A stretch of DNA of 64,000 nt from a virus, in IMG/VR virus record IMGVR_UViG_3300007734_000759, positions 1-64,000 of that record; one strand, written 5' to 3'. Made by a program: the position numbers and the translations under genes. Below the pieces are notes generated by a model. The model was given only the letters and a program-made list of their open reading frames with translations, ran no database searches and was not told where the DNA came from. Shown piece by piece: positions 260 to 59,975 of the stretch (positions are counted from its first letter, which is position 1; the number at the start of each line of letters is the position of its first letter).

Positions 260-283
260 TATCTTAACAAACCTTAAAATCTT

Positions 284-323
284 GGAGAGGAGTTGCATAC
301 TTGAATTCCTCTCCCTATCTTTA
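284..323 (+). promoter_or_regulatory. Bacteroidota-type promoter P1 with palindrome
   Basis: TTGCAT at 293-298 and TATCTTTA at 316-323 fit the -33/-7 spacing of Bacteroidota promoters. An 8-bp inverted repeat (GGAGAGGA 284-291, TCCTCTCC 307-314) brackets the -33 box and ends next to the -7 box, like an operator. It drives the gene at 344. Confidence 0.75.
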
Positions 324-343
324 GGTATCAAACAAAAACAGTT

Positions 344-505
344 ATGAAAACATTTATTATTGACCTCTACACAGGAAAAGTGGATGTCCTTCCTAAAGGA
401 GAGTTTAAAGATGCTATTGATGGACTTGAGGAAGTAGTGAGTGAAGGTGGTATTACATCCTATAGAGGAGAAGAGTACATTGTTGTAGTTCTTAAAAAAC
501 CTTAA
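344..505 (+). CDS. small hypothetical protein (53 aa)
   Basis: ATG at 344 follows the A-rich leader AAACAAAAACAGTT that recurs before most genes in this array. The product starts MKTFIIDLYTGKVDV and ends LKKP; its last codons are part of the next promoter's conserved upstream box. It looks like a compact beta-rich cytosolic protein. I do not recognise a family. Promoter, leader and stop-in-module arrangement support it as a real gene despite its size. Confidence 0.6.
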   Translation: MKTFIIDLYTGKVDVLPKGEFKDAIDGLEEVVSEGGITSYRGEEYIVVVLKKP

Positions 506-541
506 CAAAGGTTGCATATCGAATCAATAGGAGTATCTTTA
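491..541 (+). promoter_or_regulatory. Bacteroidota-type promoter P2 with upstream box
   Basis: The conserved box CTTAAAAAACCTTAAC (491-506) is followed by TTGCAT (512-517) and TATCTTTA (534-541), preceded by G (GTATCTTTA subclass). No palindrome lies between the boxes. Confidence 0.8.
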
Positions 542-569
542 GGTATCAAACAAATAAACAAAAACAGTT

Positions 570-665
570 ATGGTAGTAGTAATCTTTATGCTGTTCCTGA
601 TCTTGATGGGTCTAGGAAACATGAACAAGAAAATGAACAGGTACAATCGAACAAAACTAAAGTAA
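570..665 (+). CDS. tiny hydrophobic membrane peptide (31 aa)
   Basis: ATG at 570 comes directly after promoter P2 and its AAAAACAGTT leader. The product begins MVVVIFMLFLILMGLG, a single membrane-spanning helix, followed by a basic tail. Its stop (TAA 663-665) overlaps the ATG of the next gene at 665, so the two are probably translationally coupled. Function unknown. Confidence 0.5.
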   Translation: MVVVIFMLFLILMGLGNMNKKMNRYNRTKLK

Positions 666-865
666 TGAAGAAAATCAGATTAGTAGGTCGCTTAGCGGCA
701 TCAGCTCTTATAGCAATCTTTCTTGAAGGTTTGATGACATTGGGTCATGCATACAACTTCTCAGAGTACGGACCAATGGGATGGATCGTGCAAGGTTTGA
801 TCTTGGTATTGGTAGCTTGGATTGGTGCTGAGTGGCATGACCACGAAGAGAAGTTGAATTCTTAA
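665..865 (+). CDS. small two-helix membrane protein (66 aa)
   Basis: I place the start at 665 (MKKIRLVGRLAASALIA). A longer frame back to 512 exists, but its TTG start is the -33 box of P2 and would not be transcribed. The protein has two hydrophobic segments (about residues 6-27 and 38-55), an intervening NFSEYGPMGW loop and a charged C-terminal tail WHDHEEKLNS. The context of lipoproteins and membrane peptides suggests an envelope role such as superinfection exclusion. That is inference. Confidence 0.65.
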   Translation: MKKIRLVGRLAASALIAIFLEGLMTLGHAYNFSEYGPMGWIVQGLILVLVAWIGAEWHDHEEKLNS

Positions 866-911
866 AAAACCTTAACGGAGTGGGATCATAAGATCCCATT
901 CCCTATCTTTA
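861..911 (+). promoter_or_regulatory. Bacteroidota-type promoter P3, palindromic subclass
   Basis: The box CTTAAAAAACCTTAAC (861-876) is followed by TGGGAT (881-886) in the place of TTGCAT and by TATCTTTA (904-911). A perfect inverted repeat TGGGATC-ATAA-GATCCCA (881-898) covers the -33 region. Confidence 0.7.
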
Positions 912-931
912 AGTATCAAAAGCAAACAGTT

Positions 932-1480
932 ATGAAAAAAGCATTCGCATTAGCAGCATTGGTCCTATCCTTAGCAAGCTGCACAAAGTCAAAGTGGGAC
1001 GACAACCAACCTGTATGGGTTTATGAGTTTTGGTACAAGAAGTACATGATCTTGAATAACGGAGATACTGTACAAGGTATCAAAGTGAAACCGGATCAGT
1101 TTGGTAATCCAATCAAAGAGCTAATCAACTACAGCGGTCAAAGACCTTCAGCTCAAGGATGGACACCTATCGAATTGAATGCTGAGCAATTGGAAAACGT
1201 TCGTTGGAATTTAGGTAAGGATGATGGAGGAGCAAGGACGTTACAAGTTTGGAAGACAAGGTATGCAGGGAAGACTTTGAAAGAGATGATGAACTTCGGA
1301 GATCCAAACCATGATGGGTATGTTATAGATCCTGCATATGAGAATATGACTGTGGAGGATCTTAAAGCAATTGTTGAAGTATATGAACCTGGAATCTTGA
1401 TTGAGCATACTACGTACAAGTTAAGTCAAAGAGGAGAGACTACAAGGATCAGAGAAGAGATGTATTCCAAGAAAAACTAA
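932..1480 (+). CDS. phage lipoprotein (182 aa)
   Basis: The N-terminus MKKAFALAALVLSLASC is a lipoprotein signal peptide with lipobox L-A-S-C and Cys17 as the lipidated residue, so the product should be anchored in an envelope membrane. The mature part has a YMILNNGDTV motif and a C-terminal NMTVEDLKAIVEVY segment. Both motifs recur in the lipoprotein at 1795 (YVILNNGDTV, NLTADDVKMIVCDY), so the two are paralogues. Phage lipoproteins of this kind often block receptors or a second infection (T5 Llp is a known case). The specific role here is unknown. Confidence 0.8.
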   Translation: MKKAFALAALVLSLASCTKSKWDDNQPVWVYEFWYKKYMILNNGDTVQGIKVKPDQFGNPIKELINYSGQRPSAQGWTPIELNAEQLENVRWNLGKDDGGARTLQVWKTRYAGKTLKEMMNFGDPNHDGYVIDPAYENMTVEDLKAIVEVYEPGILIEHTTYKLSQRGETTRIREEMYSKKN

Positions 1481-1483
1481 TAT

Positions 1484-1534
1484 CTTAAAAAACCTTAACA
1501 GGAGTTGCATCCTAAGCAATTGGTTGTATCTTTA
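1484..1534 (+). promoter_or_regulatory. Bacteroidota-type promoter P4 with upstream box
   Basis: CTTAAAAAACCTTAAC is followed by TTGCAT (1505-1510) and TATCTTTA (1527-1534) with 22-nt box-to-box spacing. The leader differs from its neighbours: it carries AAAGGAG before the ATG at 1558, a rare Shine-Dalgarno-like site. Confidence 0.8.
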
Positions 1535-1557
1535 ATTCAAGAAAGGAGAACAAAGCA

Positions 1558-1728
1558 ATGGAACAAATTGGTCTTTATGTAATATCAGGATTGCTTGTAG
1601 CAAGCATGCTTGAATACCTTAATGGTCAAACAGGAAGTGATATCAAACTTAACTTGTTCGACAGATTATTGTTCGTTGTACTATGGCCTTTGTTTGGAGG
1701 TATGTTAGTAAAATCTCTAATATCTTAA
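1558..1728 (+). CDS. small membrane protein (56 aa)
   Basis: ATG at 1558 sits 7 nt after GAAAGGAG, one of very few genes here with a Shine-Dalgarno-like sequence. The product MEQIGLYVISGLLVAS... has two hydrophobic helices (about 4-18 and 36-53) separated by a polar NGQTGSDIK loop. It ends LIS, with the stop inside the CTTAAAAAACC box of the next promoter. Function unknown. Confidence 0.6.
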   Translation: MEQIGLYVISGLLVASMLEYLNGQTGSDIKLNLFDRLLFVVLWPLFGGMLVKSLIS

Positions 1729-1774
1729 AAAACCTTAACACCGGTTGCAGATCCAACCATCAGTCGTATCTTTA
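1724..1774 (+). promoter_or_regulatory. Bacteroidota-type promoter P5 with upstream box
   Basis: The conserved upstream box overlaps the stop codon of the previous gene. TTGCAG (1745-1750) and TATCTTTA (1767-1774) follow at 22-nt spacing, GTATCTTTA subclass. Confidence 0.8.
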
Positions 1775-1794
1775 GTTATCAAACAAACACAGTT

Positions 1795-2274
1795 ATGAAA
1801 AAAGCAATCTTAATCATCGCAGCAGTAATCACATTGGCATCTTGCTCAAAGCCAGAGCCATGTTGGGTTCAATTCACCCACTACAACGAATACGTGATCT
1901 TGAATAACGGTGACACTGTCACCTACGAAGATGGATTCGTAATGAGTGGAATGGCTACTGGAGCAACAAAGAGACAACTAACTCCACAAGAGCAAGAGCA
2001 ACTACAAAACCATCTCGACACAATGTGTCGTACAACGGTGAAGGGTTTCGAACCATTCCGTGACAAGGGAGAGAAGTGGAGAGAGATGGATTCCATTACT
2101 GGAAAGAAGCATACGTTGGATTACTGGATGAAGTTTCAAAACCATACCATCAAGGAGGAGTACAAGAACCTTACAGCGGACGACGTTAAGATGATTGTAT
2201 GTGATTACTACTACACCTACCAAATGTTCATGGATGATGGAGAGAAGAGATTGTACTACGACATCTTCGAATAA
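1795..2274 (+). CDS. phage lipoprotein (159 aa), paralogue of 932-1480
   Basis: MKKAILIIAAVITLASC is a lipoprotein signal peptide with Cys17 as the lipidation site. The mature protein shares the YVILNNGDTV motif near its start and the NLTADDVKMIV motif near its end with the product of 932-1480, while the middle has diverged. The shared ends and the gene order point to duplication. It ends with a Tyr-rich acidic tail. Likely envelope-located; function unknown. Confidence 0.8.
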   Translation: MKKAILIIAAVITLASCSKPEPCWVQFTHYNEYVILNNGDTVTYEDGFVMSGMATGATKRQLTPQEQEQLQNHLDTMCRTTVKGFEPFRDKGEKWREMDSITGKKHTLDYWMKFQNHTIKEEYKNLTADDVKMIVCDYYYTYQMFMDDGEKRLYYDIFE

Positions 2275-2284
2275 AAAGCAATAT

Positions 2285-2335
2285 CTTAAAAAACCTTAAC
2301 GGAGTGGGATCTTCGAATCCCATTCCCTATCTTTA
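2285..2335 (+). promoter_or_regulatory. Bacteroidota-type promoter P6, palindromic subclass
   Basis: The upstream box is followed by TGGGAT (2305-2310) and TATCTTTA (2328-2335) at 23-nt spacing. An inverted repeat TGGGAT-CTTCGA-ATCCCA (2305-2322) matches the architecture of P3. Confidence 0.7.
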
Positions 2336-2356
2336 GGTATCAAAAGCAAACAAGTT

Positions 2357-2503
2357 ATGGCAGCAGTTTACAAAGTAGAAGTAGTTTCACATTGGAAAAA
2401 CTACACTAAGGAAGAACTTGAAAAGATATTGAACGAAGCAATTAAAAAGCAAATTGAAACAGAATCAAATGAGATTACTATCGAAGTGCAAGAAAGAGTT
2501 TAA
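2357..2503 (+). CDS. small hypothetical protein (48 aa)
   Basis: ATG at 2357 follows promoter P6 and a CAAACAAGTT leader. The product MAAVYKVEVVSHWKNY... has a short beta strand, a KEELEKILNEAIKKQ helix and a final ITIEVQERV strand. That is a plausible small beta-alpha-beta fold. It is co-transcribed with the gene at 2515, 11 nt downstream. Function unknown. Confidence 0.6.
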   Translation: MAAVYKVEVVSHWKNYTKEELEKILNEAIKKQIETESNEITIEVQERV

Positions 2504-2514
2504 ATAAAAAAGTT

Positions 2515-2721
2515 ATGACACAACAAACAGCAGTAGAGTGGTTGGAAAATGAATACAATACAAAGGGTAAATTGACTGCAGTTGACTTTTACCAAGCCAA
2601 AGCAATGGAGAAGGAGCAAATCAAATTAGCATTCAGTATAGGAATGAATAGTAGTGTAGATTACTTTGATGGAGTTACTGATGAGGATGAGAATTACTAC
2701 AACGAAACATTCAATAAGTAA
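2515..2721 (+). CDS. conserved short phage/mobile-element protein (68 aa)
   Basis: The sequence TAVEWLENEY ... AKAMEKEQIKLAF ... YYNETF is a pattern I recognise from short uncharacterised proteins common in phages and mobile elements of Bacteroidota. Their function is not known. The protein is acidic and helical with no membrane segment. It is the second gene of the P6 transcript and is followed by promoter P7. Confidence 0.7.
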   Translation: MTQQTAVEWLENEYNTKGKLTAVDFYQAKAMEKEQIKLAFSIGMNSSVDYFDGVTDEDENYYNETFNK

Positions 2722-2727
2722 GAGTTC

Positions 2728-2777
2728 TTAAAAAACCTTAACAAAGGTTGCAGATCCAATCAATAGGAGTATCTTTA
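2728..2777 (+). promoter_or_regulatory. Bacteroidota-type promoter P7 with upstream box
   Basis: CTTAAAAAACCTTAAC precedes TTGCAG (2748-2753) and TATCTTTA (2770-2777), GTATCTTTA subclass. Confidence 0.8.
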
Positions 2778-2798
2778 GATATCAAAAGCAAACGAGTT

Positions 2799-2921
2799 AT
2801 GAATTATACTGAAAAGGAGATAAAGGTTATAGAGCAAAGAGCATATGACAAAGGTAGAATGGAAGGGGTTGTAGTAACCTTACTAATATGCCTACTGGGT
2901 TTAATCCTTGTGTTACTATAA
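2799..2921 (+). CDS. small membrane protein (40 aa)
   Basis: ATG at 2799 follows P7 and the leader AAAGCAAACGAGTT. The N-terminal half (MNYTEKEIKVIEQRAYDKGR) is a polar helix and the C-terminal half (VVVTLLICLLGLILVLL) is one transmembrane helix. This is a tail-anchored layout. It lies directly upstream of the tRNA-like element at 2928. Function unknown. Confidence 0.55.
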   Translation: MNYTEKEIKVIEQRAYDKGRMEGVVVTLLICLLGLILVLL

Positions 2922-2927
2922 TAAAAT

Positions 2928-3040
2928 AGTCAGGTGGCGGAATTGGTTAGACGCTGCCCGTGGAGGGTTGATTGGTTCCGTTCGACTCGGACGTTGGAAA
3001 TGGTGTTCCACAAATACAGGTTCGAATCCTGTCCTGACTG
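2928..3040 (+). tRNA. aberrant tRNA-like gene, class II (Leu/Ser type)
   Basis: A full acceptor stem (AGTCAGG 2928-2934, CCTGACT 3033-3039) and a canonical T arm (ACAGG-TTCGAAT-CCTGT 3016-3032) are present. The D arm TGGCGGAATTGG...GACGC is the one typical of tRNA-Leu. The region between D stem and variable arm is about 20 nt too long. A 7-nt loop TTCGACT on a CCG/CGG stem (2978-2990) would give anticodon CGA. A TGGAA/TTCCA hairpin (2995-3010) could be the long variable arm. It may be a functional odd tRNA, an insertion-bearing tRNA or a decayed one; the amino acid is uncertain. Confidence 0.55.
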
Positions 3041-3063
3041 CAAAATAAAGAATTTAGGTATTT

Positions 3064-3114
3064 CTTAAAAAACCTTAACAGAGCTTGTCATTCAAATCAA
3101 TAGGAGTATCTTTA
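3064..3114 (+). promoter_or_regulatory. Bacteroidota-type promoter P8 with upstream box
   Basis: CTTAAAAAACCTTAAC is followed by TTGTCA (3085-3090) and TATCTTTA (3107-3114) at 22-nt spacing. Confidence 0.75.
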
Positions 3115-3135
3115 GTTATCAAAAGAAACAAAGCT

Positions 3136-3315
3136 ATGACAAAGAATCAAAAAAGCAGATTAGTTGAGGTGATCAACTTAAACATCGAAGAAGCAAATCG
3201 TCTATTCAAAACAAAAGAACAGTCTGATGCTTACATCATCGGCTTCCTGCAAGGAGTATTGAGAGTAGTAAGAGATGAACTTGAAGAAGGTATAGAAGAA
3301 AAAGTAATATCTTAA
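3136..3315 (+). CDS. small hypothetical protein (59 aa)
   Basis: The start is ATG 3136 (MTKNQKSRLVEV). An in-frame extension to 3085 would use the -33 box as its start codon, so I reject it. The product is a helical cytosolic protein with the segments IEEANRLFKTKEQ and GFLQGVLRVVRDELEEG. It ends VIS with the stop inside the next promoter's upstream box. Function unknown. Confidence 0.6.
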   Translation: MTKNQKSRLVEVINLNIEEANRLFKTKEQSDAYIIGFLQGVLRVVRDELEEGIEEKVIS

Positions 3316-3361
3316 AAAACCTTAACGAGAGTTGATCATTAAACATTCAGTCGTATCTTTA
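3311..3361 (+). promoter_or_regulatory. Bacteroidota-type promoter P9 with upstream box
   Basis: CTTAAAAAACCTTAAC overlaps the stop of the previous gene. TTGATC (3332-3337) and TATCTTTA (3354-3361) follow at 22-nt spacing. Confidence 0.75.
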
Positions 3362-3382
3362 GATATCAAAAGCAAACAAGTT

Positions 3383-3541
3383 ATGAAAACAATCATGTCA
3401 CTAATCGTAGTCGTTCTTATCTCAAGTTGTATGTCAACGAACGGATGTATCGGAGGAGCTGATCATAATAAGAGAGTAGCTCAGAAGAGACATCACTATC
3501 GAGCTAAACATCGTTCATACACTCACTCATATTACAACTAA
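3383..3541 (+). CDS. small His-rich lipoprotein (52 aa)
   Basis: The start is ATG 3383; the longer frame from 3332 begins in the promoter. MKTIMSLIVVVLISSC is a lipoprotein signal with Cys16 as the lipidation residue. The mature part is only about 36 residues, with a second Cys in NGCIGG and a basic His/Tyr-rich tail (KRHHYRAKHRSYTHSYY). It is likely anchored in the envelope; the His-rich tail could bind metal or anionic surface polymer. Function unknown. Confidence 0.65.
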   Translation: MKTIMSLIVVVLISSCMSTNGCIGGADHNKRVAQKRHHYRAKHRSYTHSYYN

Positions 3542-3549
3542 TCTAATTT

Positions 3550-3610
3550 CTTAAAAAGTCTTAACAAAAGAAAAAAAAAGTTGAAGATCGAAAAGTAAGT
3601 AGTATCTTTA
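3550..3610 (+). promoter_or_regulatory. Bacteroidota-type promoter P10
   Basis: A diverged upstream box (CTTAAAAAGTCTTAAC) precedes TTGAAG (3581-3586) and TATCTTTA (3603-3610). The leader to the ATG at 3661 is unusually long and made of repeated AAACATTTAAACAAAC units. Confidence 0.7.
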
Positions 3611-3660
3611 AGTATTGAAAAAATAAACAAACATTTAAACAAACATTAAACAAAAACGTT

Positions 3661-3906
3661 ATGAAAAATTCAAAAAACAAAACAACTGAAACTCAAGTAG
3701 TTAACACAGTAGTTGAAAAAGTAATCTCTAAATCAGACGTATGTCGTGAGTTAGTTATTAAAGACTCTACTATTACTTTAAAGTATGTGAATCAAGAATT
3801 AACAAAGAGAGGTTTTAATACTATGTACTACTCTGAGTTACTTCGAGTTAAAGTTCAAGTTAAGAAGATGAACGAAAAAGCTAAGACTGAAGAAGTTACA
3901 GCTTAA
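3661..3906 (+). CDS. small hypothetical protein (81 aa)
   Basis: ATG at 3661 follows P10 and an A-rich leader. The product has a polar Lys/Asn/Thr start, a central DVCRELVIKDSTITLKYVNQELTKRGFNT segment reminiscent of a helix-turn-helix, and a basic C-terminus. DNA or RNA binding is possible but not shown. It is the last gene of the small-gene array, and its stop is about 30 bp before a terminator. Confidence 0.6.
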   Translation: MKNSKNKTTETQVVNTVVEKVISKSDVCRELVIKDSTITLKYVNQELTKRGFNTMYYSELLRVKVQVKKMNEKAKTEEVTA

Positions 3907-3937
3907 GTAAAAAAAGAATATGTAAATGATTGATACT

Positions 3938-3960
3938 GAGGAGCGAGAGCTCCTCTTTCT
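3938..3960 (+). terminator. rho-independent terminator closing the small-gene array
   Basis: GAGGAGC (3938-3944), GAGA loop, GCTCCTC (3949-3955) forms a 7-bp GC-rich hairpin followed by TTTCTGTTTC. It lies 32 bp after the stop at 3906. Confidence 0.7.
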
Positions 3961-4182
3961 GTTTCAACGAGTAACGTAGAAAAAAAATCTCGAATATGTA
4001 GTGACGTAGAAAATAATACGATAGCACTATGCACATAGTATGCATGTACTATATACGTACTAATAACACACACATTATCATACATATACGCACTATCTAG
4101 TATATGAGCACCTAATACGTTGAAATATAGGAATTCTAGATTTTCGCTTAAAGGCCATATATATGTATATATGTATATATCC

Positions 4183-4285
4183 CTTTCCCAACCCTTCTTA
4201 ACCACCTCCACCCTTTACCTTTCCCAACCCTCCTCTGGCGTAGAAGGCACCCCTACCTGTTTCCACCCTCGTTTTCTTTCCCAAC
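4183..4285 (+). repeat. pyrimidine-rich tract with three CTTTCCCAAC repeats
   Basis: CTTTCCCAAC occurs at 4183-4192, 4219-4228 and 4276-4285, with similar CCACC/CCACCC runs between. The last two copies are followed by a TGGCGTA motif. The + strand is almost purely pyrimidine here, unlike flanking DNA. The direct repeats resemble iterons, but no replication function is demonstrated. Confidence 0.5.
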
Positions 4286-4352
4286 TTTTTGGCGTATATT
4301 TCAATAGGGCAAAAAAAATTGAAACAAAAATTTTTCACCTATAGAAGATATA

Positions 4353-4359
4353 TATTTAT
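4353..4359 (+). promoter_or_regulatory. late motif TATTTAT
   Basis: First example, left to right, of the ATATTTAT motif that precedes late blocks. It lies 5 nt before the ATG at 4365. Confidence 0.45.
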
Positions 4360-4364
4360 CATTA

Positions 4365-5423
4365 ATGAAAAGAGCTATTAACGAAAATACAATCCCAAAG
4401 TGGGTTGCCGACATTTTTAAAACTAAGAAAGAAAAGAGATCGGAACAAGATCAAGTAGATCTAGATAGATACGTGGCTGACTTACGTTTCACAGACCCCA
4501 AGAGGTACGAACGCCTACAGGACATACTGAAGCATGTTGATCCGGATACCGGGCACCTTCCAACCGGGTTAAACACTGGTAATGTTGATGAGTCGGTACT
4601 TGACGATATTAAAGCAAGTCCTAACAAATTTACAAATTGGGAATATAAAGATCCAAAAAATCCATCCCTCGCAAGAAGAATTGTATCAAAGGGTAGGAAT
4701 GCCAACGAAGCAGCTTTGTATGTTAAAATGAGGTATCCAGAATACCCAAAGCTAAACCCACAATACTTTGAGGATACTGGTGTGGTGGTTTCATTGATTG
4801 ATAGATATGTCGAGGCTATTTATAATGGAGAGACAGAGGCTCCCGAAAAAGGGGAGACTCCTTACTTTATGAGAGAAACTAATAACAAAATGAAAAAAAG
4901 TGATTTAATGGAAATGATCCGCGAGGTTATTGCGGAAGAAGTAGGTAAGGTGGATGTTGTCCTTCCTGGAGAAGGAGTGATCGCCTCCGTAACCCCTGAG
5001 CAGAAGAAAGAGCTAAACGGTAAGGGATTTACAAAGAAAGAGCTTAAGGCTTTCGGAATCGATCACGAAGCGATCCGGGATGATATCCGATACAAGGTAT
5101 CAGGTGATAAGTCTTTGCAGCTTACATCTATTCTAAATAAAATACCTGATAACCCGTATTCACATAAAAAAGTAACAGAAAATAAAATGAAAGTAAATCA
5201 ACTAAGACAAATCATTAGAGAAGAAATCTCTAAGGTGTTGAAAGAAAACGCCCTTGGTCTTTCCCCCGATGGAGAGATGTTGTTCAACAAGTGGAAAGCT
5301 GTAAAACTTAAATACAACCCTGAGCTCGCAGCAATGTCTGATGAAGAACTTCTTGCTATGATGAGAGAGTTCGAAAGACACGAAGAGGAAATAGATCGTA
5401 GAGAGCGCTTGAGAGATATGTGA
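4365..5423 (+). CDS. hypothetical protein with two internal capsid-tag-like repeats (352 aa)
   Basis: ATG at 4365 starts MKRAINENTIPKWVADIF. Residues 1-170 are an acidic/basic mixed domain that I do not recognise. Residues about 176-193 (MKKSDLMEMIREVIAEEV) and 275-294 (MKVNQLRQIIREEISKVL) are two copies of the amphipathic motif found at the N-termini of many late proteins in this window. The protein thus looks like three segments joined by tag-like linkers that end in (I/L)xE sequences suited to the gp21 protease. It could be a polyprotein cut during head maturation. That is inference. Confidence 0.65.
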   Translation: MKRAINENTIPKWVADIFKTKKEKRSEQDQVDLDRYVADLRFTDPKRYERLQDILKHVDPDTGHLPTGLNTGNVDESVLDDIKASPNKFTNWEYKDPKNPSLARRIVSKGRNANEAALYVKMRYPEYPKLNPQYFEDTGVVVSLIDRYVEAIYNGETEAPEKGETPYFMRETNNKMKKSDLMEMIREVIAEEVGKVDVVLPGEGVIASVTPEQKKELNGKGFTKKELKAFGIDHEAIRDDIRYKVSGDKSLQLTSILNKIPDNPYSHKKVTENKMKVNQLRQIIREEISKVLKENALGLSPDGEMLFNKWKAVKLKYNPELAAMSDEELLAMMREFERHEEEIDRRERLRDM

Positions 5424-5465
5424 GTATTAACAAATAGTTAAACTACATAACAATTCCTTAACAGA

Positions 5466-5494
5466 GCCGCGTTAATTCGCGGCTTTGCTTTTTT
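5466..5494 (+). terminator. rho-independent terminator
   Basis: GCCGCG (5466-5471), TTAATT loop, CGCGGC (5478-5483) followed by TTTGCTTTTTT. It closes the 4365 transcript. Confidence 0.85.
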
Positions 5495-5499
5495 ATTAG

Positions 5500-5507
5500 T
5501 ATCTTTA
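5500..5507 (+). promoter_or_regulatory. probable -7 box TATCTTTA without clear -33 TTG
   Basis: TATCTTTA at 5500-5507 matches the -7 box of the left-end promoters and precedes the gene at 5544. The terminator hairpin occupies the expected -33 position. Confidence 0.5.
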
Positions 5508-5543
5508 TAGTAAAGGTAATTAGTTAAACTAAAAGATACACTA

Positions 5544-6173
5544 ATGAAAAAACTAATGGTTGCGGTTGTATTAACGCTATTGACGTTATTTAATTTTCAA
5601 ACTGAGGCAAGACCTCGAACCCATAAAAAGCACGTGGGTAAAACCACGCACACACGAGTTCACAACCGCAAAAAGCACAAACCTCATCATAAGAAGGTTA
5701 GAAGAAAAAAGAATGTAAAAAGGAAAAATCGTTGTCCAAAATTCGCGCGGACTAATCCTAAGGCTGTTCACGACATAGTACTTGATATGAGTGCTAAGCA
5801 TGAGGTACCTGCTGAGATTGTGTTTGCCGTAATGTATTATGAGACTGGATACCGTGGTGTAGATCACAAGTCTTATAATGGTAAACGTGTCTCAAGATGT
5901 GGTGCCGTAGGACCTATGCAAATTATGCCTCGTTATGCTGGGAAGGTATTAGGACGTAGGGTGTCTCGTTCCGAGCTTCTAACCAACTACCATACTAACA
6001 TTGAGGTTGGAGTTAAGATGCTTGCTCGTCACTATAAGATGTACGGTTCTTGGTTGAGAGCATTGGGAGCGTACTCAACAGGCAGACCTTATGCCAACAA
6101 GTACGGACGTAGGATTCTCAACAAAGCTAATCAGATTGAAGAGCAAATGCTTATAGCAGGTACGAATTGTTAA
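5544..6173 (+). CDS. secreted lytic transglycosylase (SLT/GEWL fold)
   Basis: Cleaves the MurNAc-GlcNAc bond of peptidoglycan. Residues 1-22 (MKKLMVAVVLTLLTLFNFQT) are a signal peptide, so it acts in the periplasm. Residues 24-63 are an extremely basic His/Lys/Arg region likely to bind anionic polymers. The catalytic domain begins near 70: E100 in the MYYETGY motif is the expected catalytic Glu, and GAVGPMQIMP (120-129) is the signature substrate-groove motif. The C-terminal ALGAYSTG matches the usual A-YN-G block. It has its own -7 box and may help local wall opening. An adsorption-stage role is less likely because it carries a signal peptide. Confidence 0.85.
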   Translation: MKKLMVAVVLTLLTLFNFQTEARPRTHKKHVGKTTHTRVHNRKKHKPHHKKVRRKKNVKRKNRCPKFARTNPKAVHDIVLDMSAKHEVPAEIVFAVMYYETGYRGVDHKSYNGKRVSRCGAVGPMQIMPRYAGKVLGRRVSRSELLTNYHTNIEVGVKMLARHYKMYGSWLRALGAYSTGRPYANKYGRRILNKANQIEEQMLIAGTNC

Positions 6174-6188
6174 AATTCCTTAACACAG

Positions 6189-6219
6189 TTGCTATTTATG
6201 ATACAAGTTCGTATCTTTA
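6189..6219 (+). promoter_or_regulatory. Bacteroidota-type promoter P11
   Basis: TTGCTA (6189-6194) and TATCTTTA (6212-6219) at 23-nt spacing, preceded by CCTTAACACAG, a remnant of the upstream box. It drives the lipoprotein gene at 6258. Confidence 0.75.
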
Positions 6220-6257
6220 TATTATAACACAACAGAAACATTTAAAACCAAATTTAT

Positions 6258-7528: not shown

Positions 7529-7566
7529 TATTAAATTAAACTAACCTTACTACTTTCTTAAACAGA

Positions 7567-7590
7567 GTCCCTTGCATTAGGGACTTTTTT
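7567..7590 (+). terminator. rho-independent terminator
   Basis: GTCCCT (7567-7572), TGCATT loop, AGGGAC (7579-7584) followed by six T. It separates the tRNA transcript from the T9SS-type gene. Confidence 0.85.
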
Positions 7591-7595
7591 GTTTT

Positions 7596-7602
7596 TATTT
7601 AT
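7596..7602 (+). promoter_or_regulatory. late motif TATTTAT
   Basis: TATTTAT between the terminator and the gene at 7618, 15 nt upstream of the chosen ATG. Confidence 0.4.
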
Positions 7603-7617
7603 CAATAAAAAATGCTT

Positions 7618-9132
7618 ATGAAAAAATTAATTACGTTACTAACCTTGTTACTAACTTTTGGAGCAACCGCTCAGTTCCTAGACTCAACAAACTACAAAGG
7701 AGCTTTCCCCGCAGATCAATCAATGTGGACAAATGGATGGTGTAATTGGAATCCCGATTCAACCAACTACCCAGCAATTAATATAACCGTCTCAGGAAAC
7801 ATCACTTCAAACACTACTTGGACGTCAAACAACACTTACCTTCTATCCGGTACTGTTTACGTTGACTCAGGTGTTACTTTAGTTATACAACCCGGAACTA
7901 TCATTAGAGGTAATGATTTAATTGCTAATTCAAGTTTAATTATTAAAAAAGGTGGTAGACTTATTGCTCAGGGTACTTCAACTAATCCAATTGTATTTAC
8001 TTCCAATAAACCTATCGGATCTCGAGGTGTTGGAGATTGGGGTGGAGTTATCTTGTTAGGCAGAGCTACAATGAACCAAGGTGTAGGATTTATTGAGGGA
8101 TTAGCAGCTATCGCAGATCATCAATATGGTGGTTCAGATGATAATGATAATTCAGGTATCCTATCTTATGTTCGTATTGAATATGGTGGTTATGTATTTG
8201 CCCAAAATAAAGAGATTAATGGATTAACTATGGGTGCTGTAGGAAGAGGTACTCAAATTGATCATATCCAATGTTCTTTTATTAACGATGATGCTTTTGA
8301 GTGGTACGGCGGAGCAGTAAATTGTAAATACTTAGTTTCTTATAGAACCGTAGATGATGACTTTGATTCTGATTTCGGTTATCACGGATTTGTACAGTAT
8401 GGTTTGTCAGTTAGAGATCCACAATTAGGGGATCCTTCTTACTCACTTCCTTCCGGTGCTTCTACTTCTGAAGGATTCGAATCAGACAACGATGCTGCGG
8501 GTTCAAATTTACAACCATTTACAAATGCTACATTTGCTAATTTTACAATGATTGGCCCTTTTAGAGGAAACAATACTTCAACAGTACATCCAGCATATAG
8601 AAGAGGAGCTCGTATTCGTCGTAACTCTCAAATTAAAATTATCAATACTATCTTTACAGATTGGGCAACTGGTGTGATGATTGATGGAGTTGCTTGTGAT
8701 TCTAATGCAATTCGAGGCACTTTAATTGTACGTGATAATCTAATCACCAATTACAGGACCCGAGTAGCAGAGAGAAGTTCCGCTAGCACGTTTAATGTGT
8801 TGCAGTTTATTGGATCAAATAACGATACTCTACCAACTAGTAATATCCTAACTCGTCCTTACGACTTTAATAATCCAGACTATCGTCTCAAATCATCAGT
8901 AAATAGTGAAGATCTTACCTCAATGTTACAAGCGTATCCTAACCCTTGTTCCGATGTGTTATTTGTTATAGCAACTAAAAACGATGTTTTAATGATAACC
9001 GATCTATCAAATAAGTTGATTTTAACGCAAAAGGTTACACAGGGGACGAATATAGTAAATGTTAACTTTTCTAATGGAATTTATTTAGTGAAAGTTGGAA
9101 ATCATACTAAAAAGGTAATTATTAGTAGATAA
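7618..9132 (+). CDS. secreted protein with type IX secretion (T9SS) C-terminal sorting domain
   Basis: I prefer the second ATG (7618): MKKLITLLTLLLTFGATAQ is a clean signal peptide. The body contains beta-helix-like text (TVYVDSGVTLVIQPGT, SLIIKKGGRLIAQGTS, NPIVFTSN) and the motifs DWGGVILLG, YVRIEYGGY, FEWYGGAVN and GFESDNDAAGS. I recognise these from a large family of Bacteroidota secreted proteins of unknown function. The last ~75 residues (YPNP near residue 439, then GIYLVKV and KKVIISR at the end) are a type A T9SS sorting domain. T9SS exports such proteins across the outer membrane and removes the domain. It was probably acquired from a host, and it sits directly before the lysis genes. 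Confidence 0.85.
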   Translation: MKKLITLLTLLLTFGATAQFLDSTNYKGAFPADQSMWTNGWCNWNPDSTNYPAINITVSGNITSNTTWTSNNTYLLSGTVYVDSGVTLVIQPGTIIRGNDLIANSSLIIKKGGRLIAQGTSTNPIVFTSNKPIGSRGVGDWGGVILLGRATMNQGVGFIEGLAAIADHQYGGSDDNDNSGILSYVRIEYGGYVFAQNKEINGLTMGAVGRGTQIDHIQCSFINDDAFEWYGGAVNCKYLVSYRTVDDDFDSDFGYHGFVQYGLSVRDPQLGDPSYSLPSGASTSEGFESDNDAAGSNLQPFTNATFANFTMIGPFRGNNTSTVHPAYRRGARIRRNSQIKIINTIFTDWATGVMIDGVACDSNAIRGTLIVRDNLITNYRTRVAERSSASTFNVLQFIGSNNDTLPTSNILTRPYDFNNPDYRLKSSVNSEDLTSMLQAYPNPCSDVLFVIATKNDVLMITDLSNKLILTQKVTQGTNIVNVNFSNGIYLVKVGNHTKKVIISR

Positions 9133-9159
9133 AAATAAAGTAACATTTTTTCGGAAAGG

Positions 9160-9179
9160 CCTCCATTAGGAGGTTTTTT
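9160..9179 (+). terminator. rho-independent terminator
   Basis: CCTCC (9160-9164), ATTA loop, GGAGG (9169-9173), six T. Closes the T9SS-type gene. Confidence 0.8.
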
Positions 9180-9185
9180 CTTTAC

Positions 9186-10862: not shown

Positions 10863-11459
10863 ATGAATATTCAAAATTTAAAAGGTCACATCCCCGACAC
10901 AGTACTCGCTCAAATTCCATCTGTGATGGAGAAGTTCAAAATTGATACTCCATTGGAGTTAGCTCACTTCTTGGCTCAGTGTGGTCACGAAAGTGGAAAC
11001 TTTAAAGCAGTATCTGAAAACCTAAACTACTCAGCTGATGGTTTAAAGAAAATCTTTCCTAAATACTTTCCTGGAAACTTGAATGAATCCTACGCTCGTA
11101 AGCCAGAGGCTATTGCTTCTCGTGTCTATGCTTCGCGTATGGGTAATGGAGATGAATCTTCTAAAGAGGGTTTCAAATTTAGAGGTAGAGGCTACATCCA
11201 ATTAACCGGTAAAGCTAACTACGCTGAATTTGATAAATTTGTAGAAGATGACATTCTAGCAAATCCAGATTTAGTAGCAACTAAGTATCCCTTGCTTTCA
11301 GCTGCTTGGTTCTTTTCCAAGAATAAACTAAATGAAATTGCTTCTAAAGGAGCTGACGATGCTACTGTTACTGCTGTTACTAAAAGAGTGAATGGTGGAA
11401 CTATTGGATTGGCTGATCGTATCAAGCATTTTAAAGAGTTCTACGCTCTATTAAAATAA
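10863..11459 (+). CDS. endolysin, glycoside hydrolase family 19 (chitinase/lysozyme-like)
   Basis: Cleaves glycan strands of peptidoglycan. The length (198 aa) equals a single GH19-type endolysin domain. QCGHESGNF (E43) carries the expected catalytic Glu, FRGRGYIQLTGKANY (106-120) is the hallmark block, and VTKRVNGG near the C-terminus is the conserved substrate-loop motif. There is no signal peptide, so release needs a holin; the holin-like genes lie just upstream. This is the principal lysis enzyme candidate. Confidence 0.9.
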   Translation: MNIQNLKGHIPDTVLAQIPSVMEKFKIDTPLELAHFLAQCGHESGNFKAVSENLNYSADGLKKIFPKYFPGNLNESYARKPEAIASRVYASRMGNGDESSKEGFKFRGRGYIQLTGKANYAEFDKFVEDDILANPDLVATKYPLLSAAWFFSKNKLNEIASKGADDATVTAVTKRVNGGTIGLADRIKHFKEFYALLK

Positions 11460-11490: not shown

Positions 11491-11736
11491 ATGAAGAAAT
11501 TCTTTAAATCAATGTTGAGTTCCACATCAGGTGATGTCAGCTCAAAAAGAGTTATAGCATTTTTAGGCTTTTTAGCTTTAGCCGGTACAATGATTATCAA
11601 TAGTAACACTCACGAAGAAATTAAACCTTCTGCAGAGTTGGTAAGTGCTGTTGAATATATCACCATTGCTTGTCTTTTTGGTACTAGCTTAGATAACTTT
11701 GCTGCTCCTAAAAAACCTAATAAAACAGAAGAATAA
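11491..11736 (+). CDS. small two-helix membrane protein, possible holin (81 aa)
   Basis: A basic N-terminus (MKKFFKSMLSSTSGDVSSKR) precedes two hydrophobic helices (about 22-38 and 54-72) and a charged tail KKPNKTEE. The SxxGDVSSKRVIAFL start is familiar from phage proteins annotated as holins, but I cannot confirm the family. It overlaps the next gene by 1 nt and sits between two murein-degrading enzymes, which supports a lysis role. Confidence 0.55.
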   Translation: MKKFFKSMLSSTSGDVSSKRVIAFLGFLALAGTMIINSNTHEEIKPSAELVSAVEYITIACLFGTSLDNFAAPKKPNKTEE

Positions 11737-58637: not shown

Positions 58638-59975
58638 ATGTCAAGAGCATTATTAAAAGAAGCAATTGCCGACGCAAAAGCCGTGAAGGAAGCTGCTATT
58701 GCAAACGCCAAGGCTGCTCTCGAGGAAGCATTTACACCACACCTGAAGGAACTTCTTGCTAGCAAACTGGAAAGTTTGGAAGAAGAAGAAATGGAAACTG
58801 AAGGAATGGGTAAAGCATCCAAGATGAAAAGAGCCATGGACGAGTATGGGATGGAGCATCCAGATATCGACATGGACGGCGATGGAGATGTTGACGCAGA
58901 CGACGTCGCATTGATGAAGGAAATTGATCTCGATGAAATCTTAGCTGAATTAGACGGCTTAGATGAAAAGAAGATCAAAACAGCTCGTCAAACAGACAAC
59001 CGCGATGCGGAGGAAGAGGATAATCCATTTGATAAAGGTAGAACCAAACATCAACCAATGGATGAAGCCAAGAAATCAGATGATTCTGAAGAAGAAGCAG
59101 ATGATGAAGAATTTAACATGGATAACATTGAAAAAGCAATCAGAAAAGTCATCGACGATATGGTTGAAGCTGGTGAACTGGAAGCAGGAGAAGGCGAATC
59201 AAGAGAAGATGAGGATTCAATGAAAGACTTGGAAGATGATGCCATGGGTGAAGAAGATGAAGAGATTGACTTACAAGAGCTTATTAGAGAGATGAAAAAA
59301 GAAGAACAAATGCGTGAATATGTTGAAGGCGGACCTTCTTCTGAAAATGCTCTGTTGAAAGCCGTTGATGCTGCTCTTGAAAAGGGTGGTGAATTAGCTA
59401 AAAAACTATTGAAGCTACTAGCTAGTGGTGGTGGTGGTTGGCAAAGAGGTGGTATGTATGAAGAGGACTTGAACGAATACGTTGAAGGTGGTCCTTCTTC
59501 TGAAAACGCTCTACTAAAGGCTGTTGATGCTGCTCTTGAAAAGGGTGGAGAATTGGCTAAAAAGCTAATGGCACTACTTGCTCAAGGTGGTGGTGGTTGG
59601 GATCAAGGAGGTATTTATGAAGATGAGCTTAACGAAGCTTACTCTACCATTAAAACTCTCCGCTCTGAACTTAATGAAGTAAACTTGCTAAACGCTAAGT
59701 TGCTTTATACCAACAAAATCTTCAAAGCTAAAAACTTGACTGAAGGTCAAAAGGTAAAGGTTTTATCAACATTTGATAAAGCTACAACTGTAAAAGAAGT
59801 TAAATTGGTATTTGAATCACTAAGTACATCAATTGCTGCTTCTAACAGCACAGTTAAAGCTCCAATCAAAGAATCAATGGGCTTTGCATCTAAAGCTTCA
59901 GGCGTAGTTAAAAACAATCAAACGATTGAAACAGACGCTGTGATCGCTCGCATGAAAAAGCTCGCAGGACTATAA
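58638..59975 (+). CDS. 22: prohead scaffold core protein, T4 gp22-like, with duplicated module and EF-hand-like motif (445 aa)
   Basis: The main scaffold of the prohead, expected to be destroyed by gp21. It is acidic and helical with a start MSRALLKEAIADAKAVKEAA like gp22. It is longer than T4 gp22 (269 aa) because of two additions. First, DMDGDGDVDADDVALM (about residue 75) is an EF-hand/dockerin-type calcium loop. Second, a 53-residue unit beginning EYVEGGPSSENALLKAV is present twice in tandem. The C-terminus (LNEVNLLNAKLLYTNKIFKA, IARMKKLAGL) matches the conserved gp22 end. Confidence 0.9.
   Translation: MSRALLKEAIADAKAVKEAAIANAKAALEEAFTPHLKELLASKLESLEEEEMETEGMGKASKMKRAMDEYGMEHPDIDMDGDGDVDADDVALMKEIDLDEILAELDGLDEKKIKTARQTDNRDAEEEDNPFDKGRTKHQPMDEAKKSDDSEEEADDEEFNMDNIEKAIRKVIDDMVEAGELEAGEGESREDEDSMKDLEDDAMGEEDEEIDLQELIREMKKEEQMREYVEGGPSSENALLKAVDAALEKGGELAKKLLKLLASGGGGWQRGGMYEEDLNEYVEGGPSSENALLKAVDAALEKGGELAKKLMALLAQGGGGWDQGGIYEDELNEAYSTIKTLRSELNEVNLLNAKLLYTNKIFKAKNLTEGQKVKVLSTFDKATTVKEVKLVFESLSTSIAASNSTVKAPIKESMGFASKASGVVKNNQTIETDAVIARMKKLAGL
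59316..59633 (+). repeat. tandem 159-bp duplication inside the scaffold gene
   Basis: Unit 1 is 59316-59474 and unit 2 is 59475-59633, each 53 codons, encoding EYVEGGPSSENALLKAV...GELAKKL...GGGGW...N. The protein copies are nearly identical while many third positions differ, so the duplication is not recent and the copies are under selection. Confidence 0.85.

Follow-up and report, generated by a model that had tools for sequence, protein, structure and literature searches.

A beta-helix protein of large Bacteroidota phages, predicted to be exported by the host type IX secretion system, with a possible role in phosphorus capture

Introduction

In Flavobacterium johnsoniae, the PhoBR operon encodes OprP, PhoR, PhoB, the TonB-dependent receptor Fjoh_0545 and the lipoprotein Fjoh_0546 (FII), which has a pectin-lyase fold; Fjoh_0545 and Fjoh_0546 are both strongly induced under phosphate depletion (PMC8115612). 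Homology models of FI and FII resemble polygalacturonase (Lidbury et al., PMC8115612), and FII and its paralogues (FI) are reported relatives of ElpS from Caulobacter crescentus. ElpS (CC0170) is a surface protein of phosphate starvation whose gene lies beside that of the TonB-dependent receptor CC0171; it is itself not a phosphatase, and secreted phosphatase activity rose only on its overproduction (PMC2996285).

Cargo of the type IX secretion system (T9SS) encoded by phages has already been described for Cryophage (PMC7468147) and for crAss-like phages (PMC6949934). The Cryophage proteins carry type A T9SS domains, as does the protein studied here, but have endoglucanase, GH39 and PA14 bodies, and the portions of that report available to us do not connect them with phosphate or TonB-dependent receptors. 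The crAss-like proteins likewise have a T9SS domain, their bodies being BACON-domain proteins encoded near head genes. In the megaphages Mar_Mega_1 and LR745206, a SusC-like TonB-dependent receptor has been termed an auxiliary gene and carbohydrate uptake suggested for it; the accessible portions of the paper (PMC9723777) mention no partner protein. That paper was the sole relevant report found in the literature on phage-encoded TonB-dependent receptors.

Here we describe a gene at positions 7618-9132 (plus strand) of a 64,000-nucleotide stretch of viral DNA, hereafter the window (positions 1 to 64,000 of IMG/VR record IMGVR_UViG_3300007734_000759), that encodes a 504-aa beta-helix protein with a T9SS tail. 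Its bacterial family resembles the FII/Fjoh_0545 pair (PUSIV) in that a beta-helix surface protein of the pectin-lyase type has a TonB-dependent receptor and PhoB/PhoR as genomic neighbours. FII is described as a lipoprotein, whereas the window protein has a T9SS domain in place of a lipid anchor and is encoded without adjoining receptor or regulator genes. FII appears to be a member of this bacterial family, as inferred from layout, fold and published description without direct alignment. By analogy, ElpS may be related to the family as well, the sequences not having been directly compared: it is reported to be homologous to FI and FII and is likewise a phosphate-starvation surface protein whose gene adjoins a TonB-dependent receptor, but it is a lipoprotein, its release depends on the T2SS and it is not phage-borne. 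As far as the literature was searched, three findings are new: what the body is, how widely and repeatedly it occurs among phages, and that it is paired there with a receptor carried by the phage.

Results

The source record is 159,435 bp long and carries genes for portal, major head protein, baseplate wedge and large terminase, and Flavobacterium phage immuto (160 kb) matches part of its structural region in both sequence and gene order. It is a large myovirus related to immuto. The open frame under study runs from an ATG at 7612 or 7618 to the stop codon at 9130-9132, giving 504 aa if the ATG at 7618 is used, and homologues of the same length occur on two other phage contigs, L001 and L002. 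It is the only gene between two terminator-like hairpins on the plus strand, one upstream (7564-7587) and one downstream (9153-9180). A TATTTAT motif on the same strand (7596-7602) precedes it; this motif occurs at 29 sites in the window, including 7596, 9186 and 53513, and one also precedes the portal gene. Of the 29 window sites, 14 are found 8-45 nt upstream of a start codon, where chance would give 1.4, and a role of TATTTAT as a late promoter element is possible to likely. Downstream lie lysis genes, namely endolysins at 10863-11459 (plus strand; PHROG 181, E 6e-68), which is context and no part of the mechanism proposed below, and at 11736. The late expression inferred in an earlier sequence-only reading of this DNA agrees with the flanking hairpins, the enriched motif and the nearby lysis genes, although late timing itself remains only suggestive.

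That reading had also proposed a signal peptide and a type A T9SS sorting signal, and had named a search with Pfam and TIGRFAM sorting-domain models as the way to check the latter. The Sec-type signal peptide comprises residues 1-19 (MKKLITLLTLLLTFGATAQ; 7618-7674, plus strand) and has no lipobox cysteine; the call rests on reading the sequence and on a helix at residues 2-13 of the structure model, not on a dedicated predictor. At the other end, a disordered linker (residues 427-437, 8896-8928, plus strand; pLDDT <50 in AlphaFold2) is followed by the sorting domain (residues 440-502, 8935-9123, plus strand), which scores above the curated cut-offs of both TIGR04183 in NCBIfam (E 5.7e-8, 32.6 bits, cut-off 23) and PF18962 in Pfam (E 6.9e-7, 29.9 bits, cut-off 27). 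No other product of the 159,435-bp record matches TIGR04183. In the AlphaFold2 model this domain is a beta-sandwich like those of solved T9SS domains, with TM-scores of 0.70 (of the target) to RemA-CTD (8gl6), 0.71 to RemZ in 8gl8 and 0.57 to the RgpB CTD (7pq4), and a sequence search of the PDB matched T9SS domains only. The domain diverges fast (28% identity between the window protein and the L001 copy) yet is still recognizable, and 26 of the 33 non-redundant phage sequences match TIGR04183 at E ≤0.001. Both secretion signals thus hold up, and export by the T9SS is well supported as a prediction, with no export experiment behind it. The Bacteroidota host deduced from the sorting domain is also supported: the closest homologue among bacteria comes from a Bacteroidota genome that encodes a full SprA translocon, and the related phage immuto has Flavobacterium as its host.

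Phage immuto itself encodes a protein with the same two signals. Its immuto26A_15 (MW353175, 12691-13422; L165:3692-4423) has 243 aa, a signal peptide and a type A T9SS domain (46.5 bits), and its annotation does not mention T9SS; its secretion signals are like those of the window protein, whereas its cohesin-like body belongs to an unrelated family. Upstream of it are two further secreted-looking proteins, one of them annotated with a C-type lectin domain.

The body of the window protein (residues 20-425, 7675-8892, plus strand) matched no family in Pfam, PHROG or NCBIfam. AlphaFold2 modelled it confidently as a beta-helix, and Foldseek searches with the full and the body-only models gave weak beta-helix matches that included polysaccharide lyases, GH28 enzymes and tailspikes. 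All were remote (TM ≤0.42, about 10% identity) and indicate the general beta-helix fold only, so no enzyme identity was taken from them. A phage tailspike or depolymerase was likewise set aside, given the signal peptide, the T9SS domain and the location of the gene outside the tail cluster. Nor is the protein a SusD, although it may function similarly: no SusD domain (PF07980, PF14322 and similar) was found in 47 family members. At 69 positions, conservation is at least 95% in the alignment dominated by bacterial sequences as well as in that of the phages; 16 of these are acidic, and the conserved positions include the motifs around D224-E228 (D224, D225 and E228), D246-D252 and E288-D292. From the spacing of these motifs we infer that the body has an acidic, probably cation-assisted binding face, for which there are no binding data. 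Between the window and L001 copies the body shows a dN of 0.11 and a dS of 1.22 (ratio about 0.09), the dS being close to saturation; these substitution estimates indicate that the body is under purifying selection.

A profile query found the body family in 67 viral loci, which fall into 32 groups at 95% identity and give 33 distinct sequences with that of the window; homologues in other phages, which the sequence-only reading had proposed to look for, are therefore numerous. Terminase was found on 15 of 31 and capsid on 12 of 30 phage contigs with a family gene, many of the negatives being attributable to short contigs. The L001 copy is 73% identical and lies in the same surrounding gene order as in the window; the L002 copy, also 73% identical, is in another arrangement, again adjoining an endolysin. 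Three members (L145, L154 and L159) have no C-terminal sorting domain but start with lipoprotein-type signals, so that they seem to reach the surface in a different way, as far as can be predicted. In the tree, phage sequences fall into several clades, the best tree requiring four changes and the well-supported branches alone forcing at least two. On this phylogeny there were at least two separate acquisitions by phages, and one single recent pick-up is ruled out. The window, L001 and L002 make up one clade, whose sister is the bacterial gene L008, among Chitinophagaceae sequences; the L008 genome has two family members and a full SprA. Two short faecal scaffolds labelled 'Bacteriophage sp.' (MT837092 and MT838075) carry bacterial-type genes, are likely bacterial and were excluded from the phage evidence. 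In phage L003, the product of the gene after the family copy (L003:11499-13130) has a T9SS domain of type B (TIGR04131), which makes two adjacent genes for surface proteins in this phage.

In 22 viral loci, belonging to 9 of the 32 groups, the beta-helix gene is followed within less than 100 bp by a gene for a TonB-dependent receptor of about 850-930 aa, in which plug and barrel domains are both present. In the receptor tree, nine sequences from phages group in a single clade that is well supported and internally diverse, so that these receptors have probably been evolving in phages for a long time. In the L111 cassette, genes for a Gp23-type capsid protein and a prohead protease are close by. 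The 634-kb megaphage LR745206 encodes a lipoprotein form of the body family and then the TonB-dependent receptor (L087:7743-11583); elsewhere that record has one more plug domain, and T9SS domains at two places. The receptor plug domain was absent from the window phage, from immuto and from most other records searched.

Bacterial homologues show about 43-64% identity to the phage protein in the best segment, and their neighbourhoods are informative. A TonB-dependent receptor is present in 72 of 78 bacterial loci, upstream and on the same strand and usually immediately adjoining. Response regulators (35 of the 78 loci) and histidine kinases (17) come next in frequency; their best NCBIfam models include PhoB, PhoR and PnpS, with scores below the equivalog cut-offs. 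PitA and a phosphate-selective porin lie near the family gene in L075; in L021 there is a PhoX-like neighbour that has a T9SS domain itself. In an even draw of 150 genomes from one order, 125 hold a family member at E ≤1e-15. Among 15 of these Flavobacteriales genomes that were inspected in detail, the receptor is adjacent in all 15, before or after the family gene, and a PhoB-like regulator is near in 11; 5 have PhoR-like kinases nearby and 2 have proteins weakly resembling PhoX. The members in these genomes have 400-470 aa and mostly lipoprotein-type N-termini. PhoH was found in 15 of 27 records but is too common in phages and bacteria to carry weight as evidence for phosphate. Assignment of the phage body to this family of receptor partners is well supported by sequence comparison, and the bacterial context points to phosphorus acquisition together with a TonB-dependent receptor, as far as gene neighbourhoods can tell. 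The sequence-only reading had suggested that the product decorates or modifies the cell surface or its surroundings, which was right but vague, the bacterial context being indicative of phosphorus acquisition; it made no mention of the phage T9SS cargo described earlier (PMC7468147, PMC6949934).

Discussion

We propose, as a modestly probable reading, that this is a host-derived auxiliary gene and that its product, a T9SS-exported surface protein of the phosphate-regulon type, boosts phosphorus capture during infection, the role in infection being inferred. The protein would be made in the infected cell, possibly late, and its signal peptide is predicted to direct it into Sec export. From the identity of the C-terminal domain it is predicted that the host T9SS translocon would recognise this domain and bring the protein to the surface, and that host enzymes would remove the domain. 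The acidic beta-helix body may then help to bind phosphorus compounds and deliver them to a partner TonB-dependent receptor, a step inferred because of the conserved gene pairing and the published phosphate induction. The receptor would come from the host in the case of the window phage and from the phage itself in the related group, and the extra phosphorus would presumably feed phage DNA synthesis. Against a phosphorus role, the window phage does not itself encode the receptor, and experimental data are lacking for export, phosphate binding and expression alike. The sub-cut-off scores of the regulator matches, the fast divergence of the sorting domain and the effect of ElpS on phosphatase activity only when overproduced (PMC2996285) also count against it, as does the indirect nature of the link to FII and ElpS. 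An early gene would be easier to reconcile with nutrient supply than one near lysis genes, and this position, together with the possible late promoter, is compatible with superinfection exclusion or with some function around lysis.

Superinfection exclusion is the main rival. Here the partner protein would flood the surface and cap or alter a host TonB-dependent receptor that is a possible entry site of other phages. TonB-dependent receptors are common phage receptors, and receptor-blocking phage lipoproteins are known from T5 and relatives of phi80; the window phage, which has the partner alone and encodes it among late or lysis genes, fits exclusion. The idea was also suggested for T9SS cargo by Bellas et al. 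(PMC7468147). However, a mere cap would not need all the conserved acidic positions, and that other phages carry the receptor too is unpredicted by exclusion, which we regard as unlikely but still deserving attention. The nearby lysis genes would suit a surface-bound or released glycan-active enzyme, the body of which cuts host or environmental polysaccharide and, for example, frees progeny phage. The enzymes and tailspikes among the Foldseek matches and the polygalacturonase-like homology models of FI and FII (PMC8115612) agree with this, but the remoteness of those matches, which extend to the general fold only, and bacterial neighbours that are phosphate genes and a receptor with no carbohydrate enzymes make it improbable in our view.

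The gene might instead be a passenger, recently captured from a host and useless to the phage: the window clade has as its closest sister a bacterial gene that no receptor adjoins, and the phage gene stands alone between terminators. A dN/dS of about 0.09 in the body between related phages, retention in three related phages despite differing gene order and repeated acquisition by unrelated phages all speak against such a passenger, and we hold it to be very unlikely. Host contamination or chimeric assembly, which the sequence-only reading had itself named as the finding that would refute it, has only the existence of close bacterial homologues in its favour. It is already contradicted by the same flanks on independent contigs (L001), with phage genes on both sides, by other arrangements elsewhere and by a phage-only clade, and a misassembled host fragment can be ruled out for practical purposes.

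Returning to phosphorus capture, a wider claim is that large Bacteroidota phages have a virus-encoded outer-membrane device for phosphorus acquisition, consisting of a T9SS-exported capture protein and, in one group, the phage's own TonB-dependent receptor; we advance this only tentatively, as a serious possibility. If it is true, the phage gives the infected cell an energised importer for nutrients, or boosts one, and Bacteroidota phages exploit the secretion system of their hosts' phylum, along with TonB-dependent import, towards phosphorus supply. The cyanophage genes pstS and phoA are the classic phosphorus auxiliary genes, and we know of no equivalents for Bacteroidota phages. A functional reading is thereby offered for some phage T9SS cargo, and the megaphage receptor is extended to a receptor-partner pair. 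Cultured systems indicated for testing are F. johnsoniae, of which a strain without Fjoh_0546 has been reported (PMC7807042), and immuto with its host, Flavobacterium sp. LMO8.

Other features of the phage genomes

A 69-nt repeat occurs nine times at 272-6236 of the window (TTAAAAAACCTTAAC ... TATCTTTA), mostly 5' of small genes, and is probably a phage promoter family. At 59301-59618 of the window, a 159-nt tandem duplication (79% identical) lies within a gene for 445 aa that precedes the one for the head protein. Elsewhere in the source record, and read from sequence only, there are an apparent GroEL-like chaperonin (G000, 106167-107786) and, at about 110-127 kb (L093, L094), an apparent large cluster of sugar and glycosyltransferase genes, as likewise in immuto. 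Beside the lysis genes of both L001 (4159-5355) and L002 (8578-9918) is a secreted-looking protein of about 400-450 aa; the two have similar C-termini and no NCBIfam match. In the records of L111, L119 and L158 (G009, G012 and G029), which are three related phages, one in-frame TAA falls within the large terminase match, which suggests an intron, a split gene or recoding.
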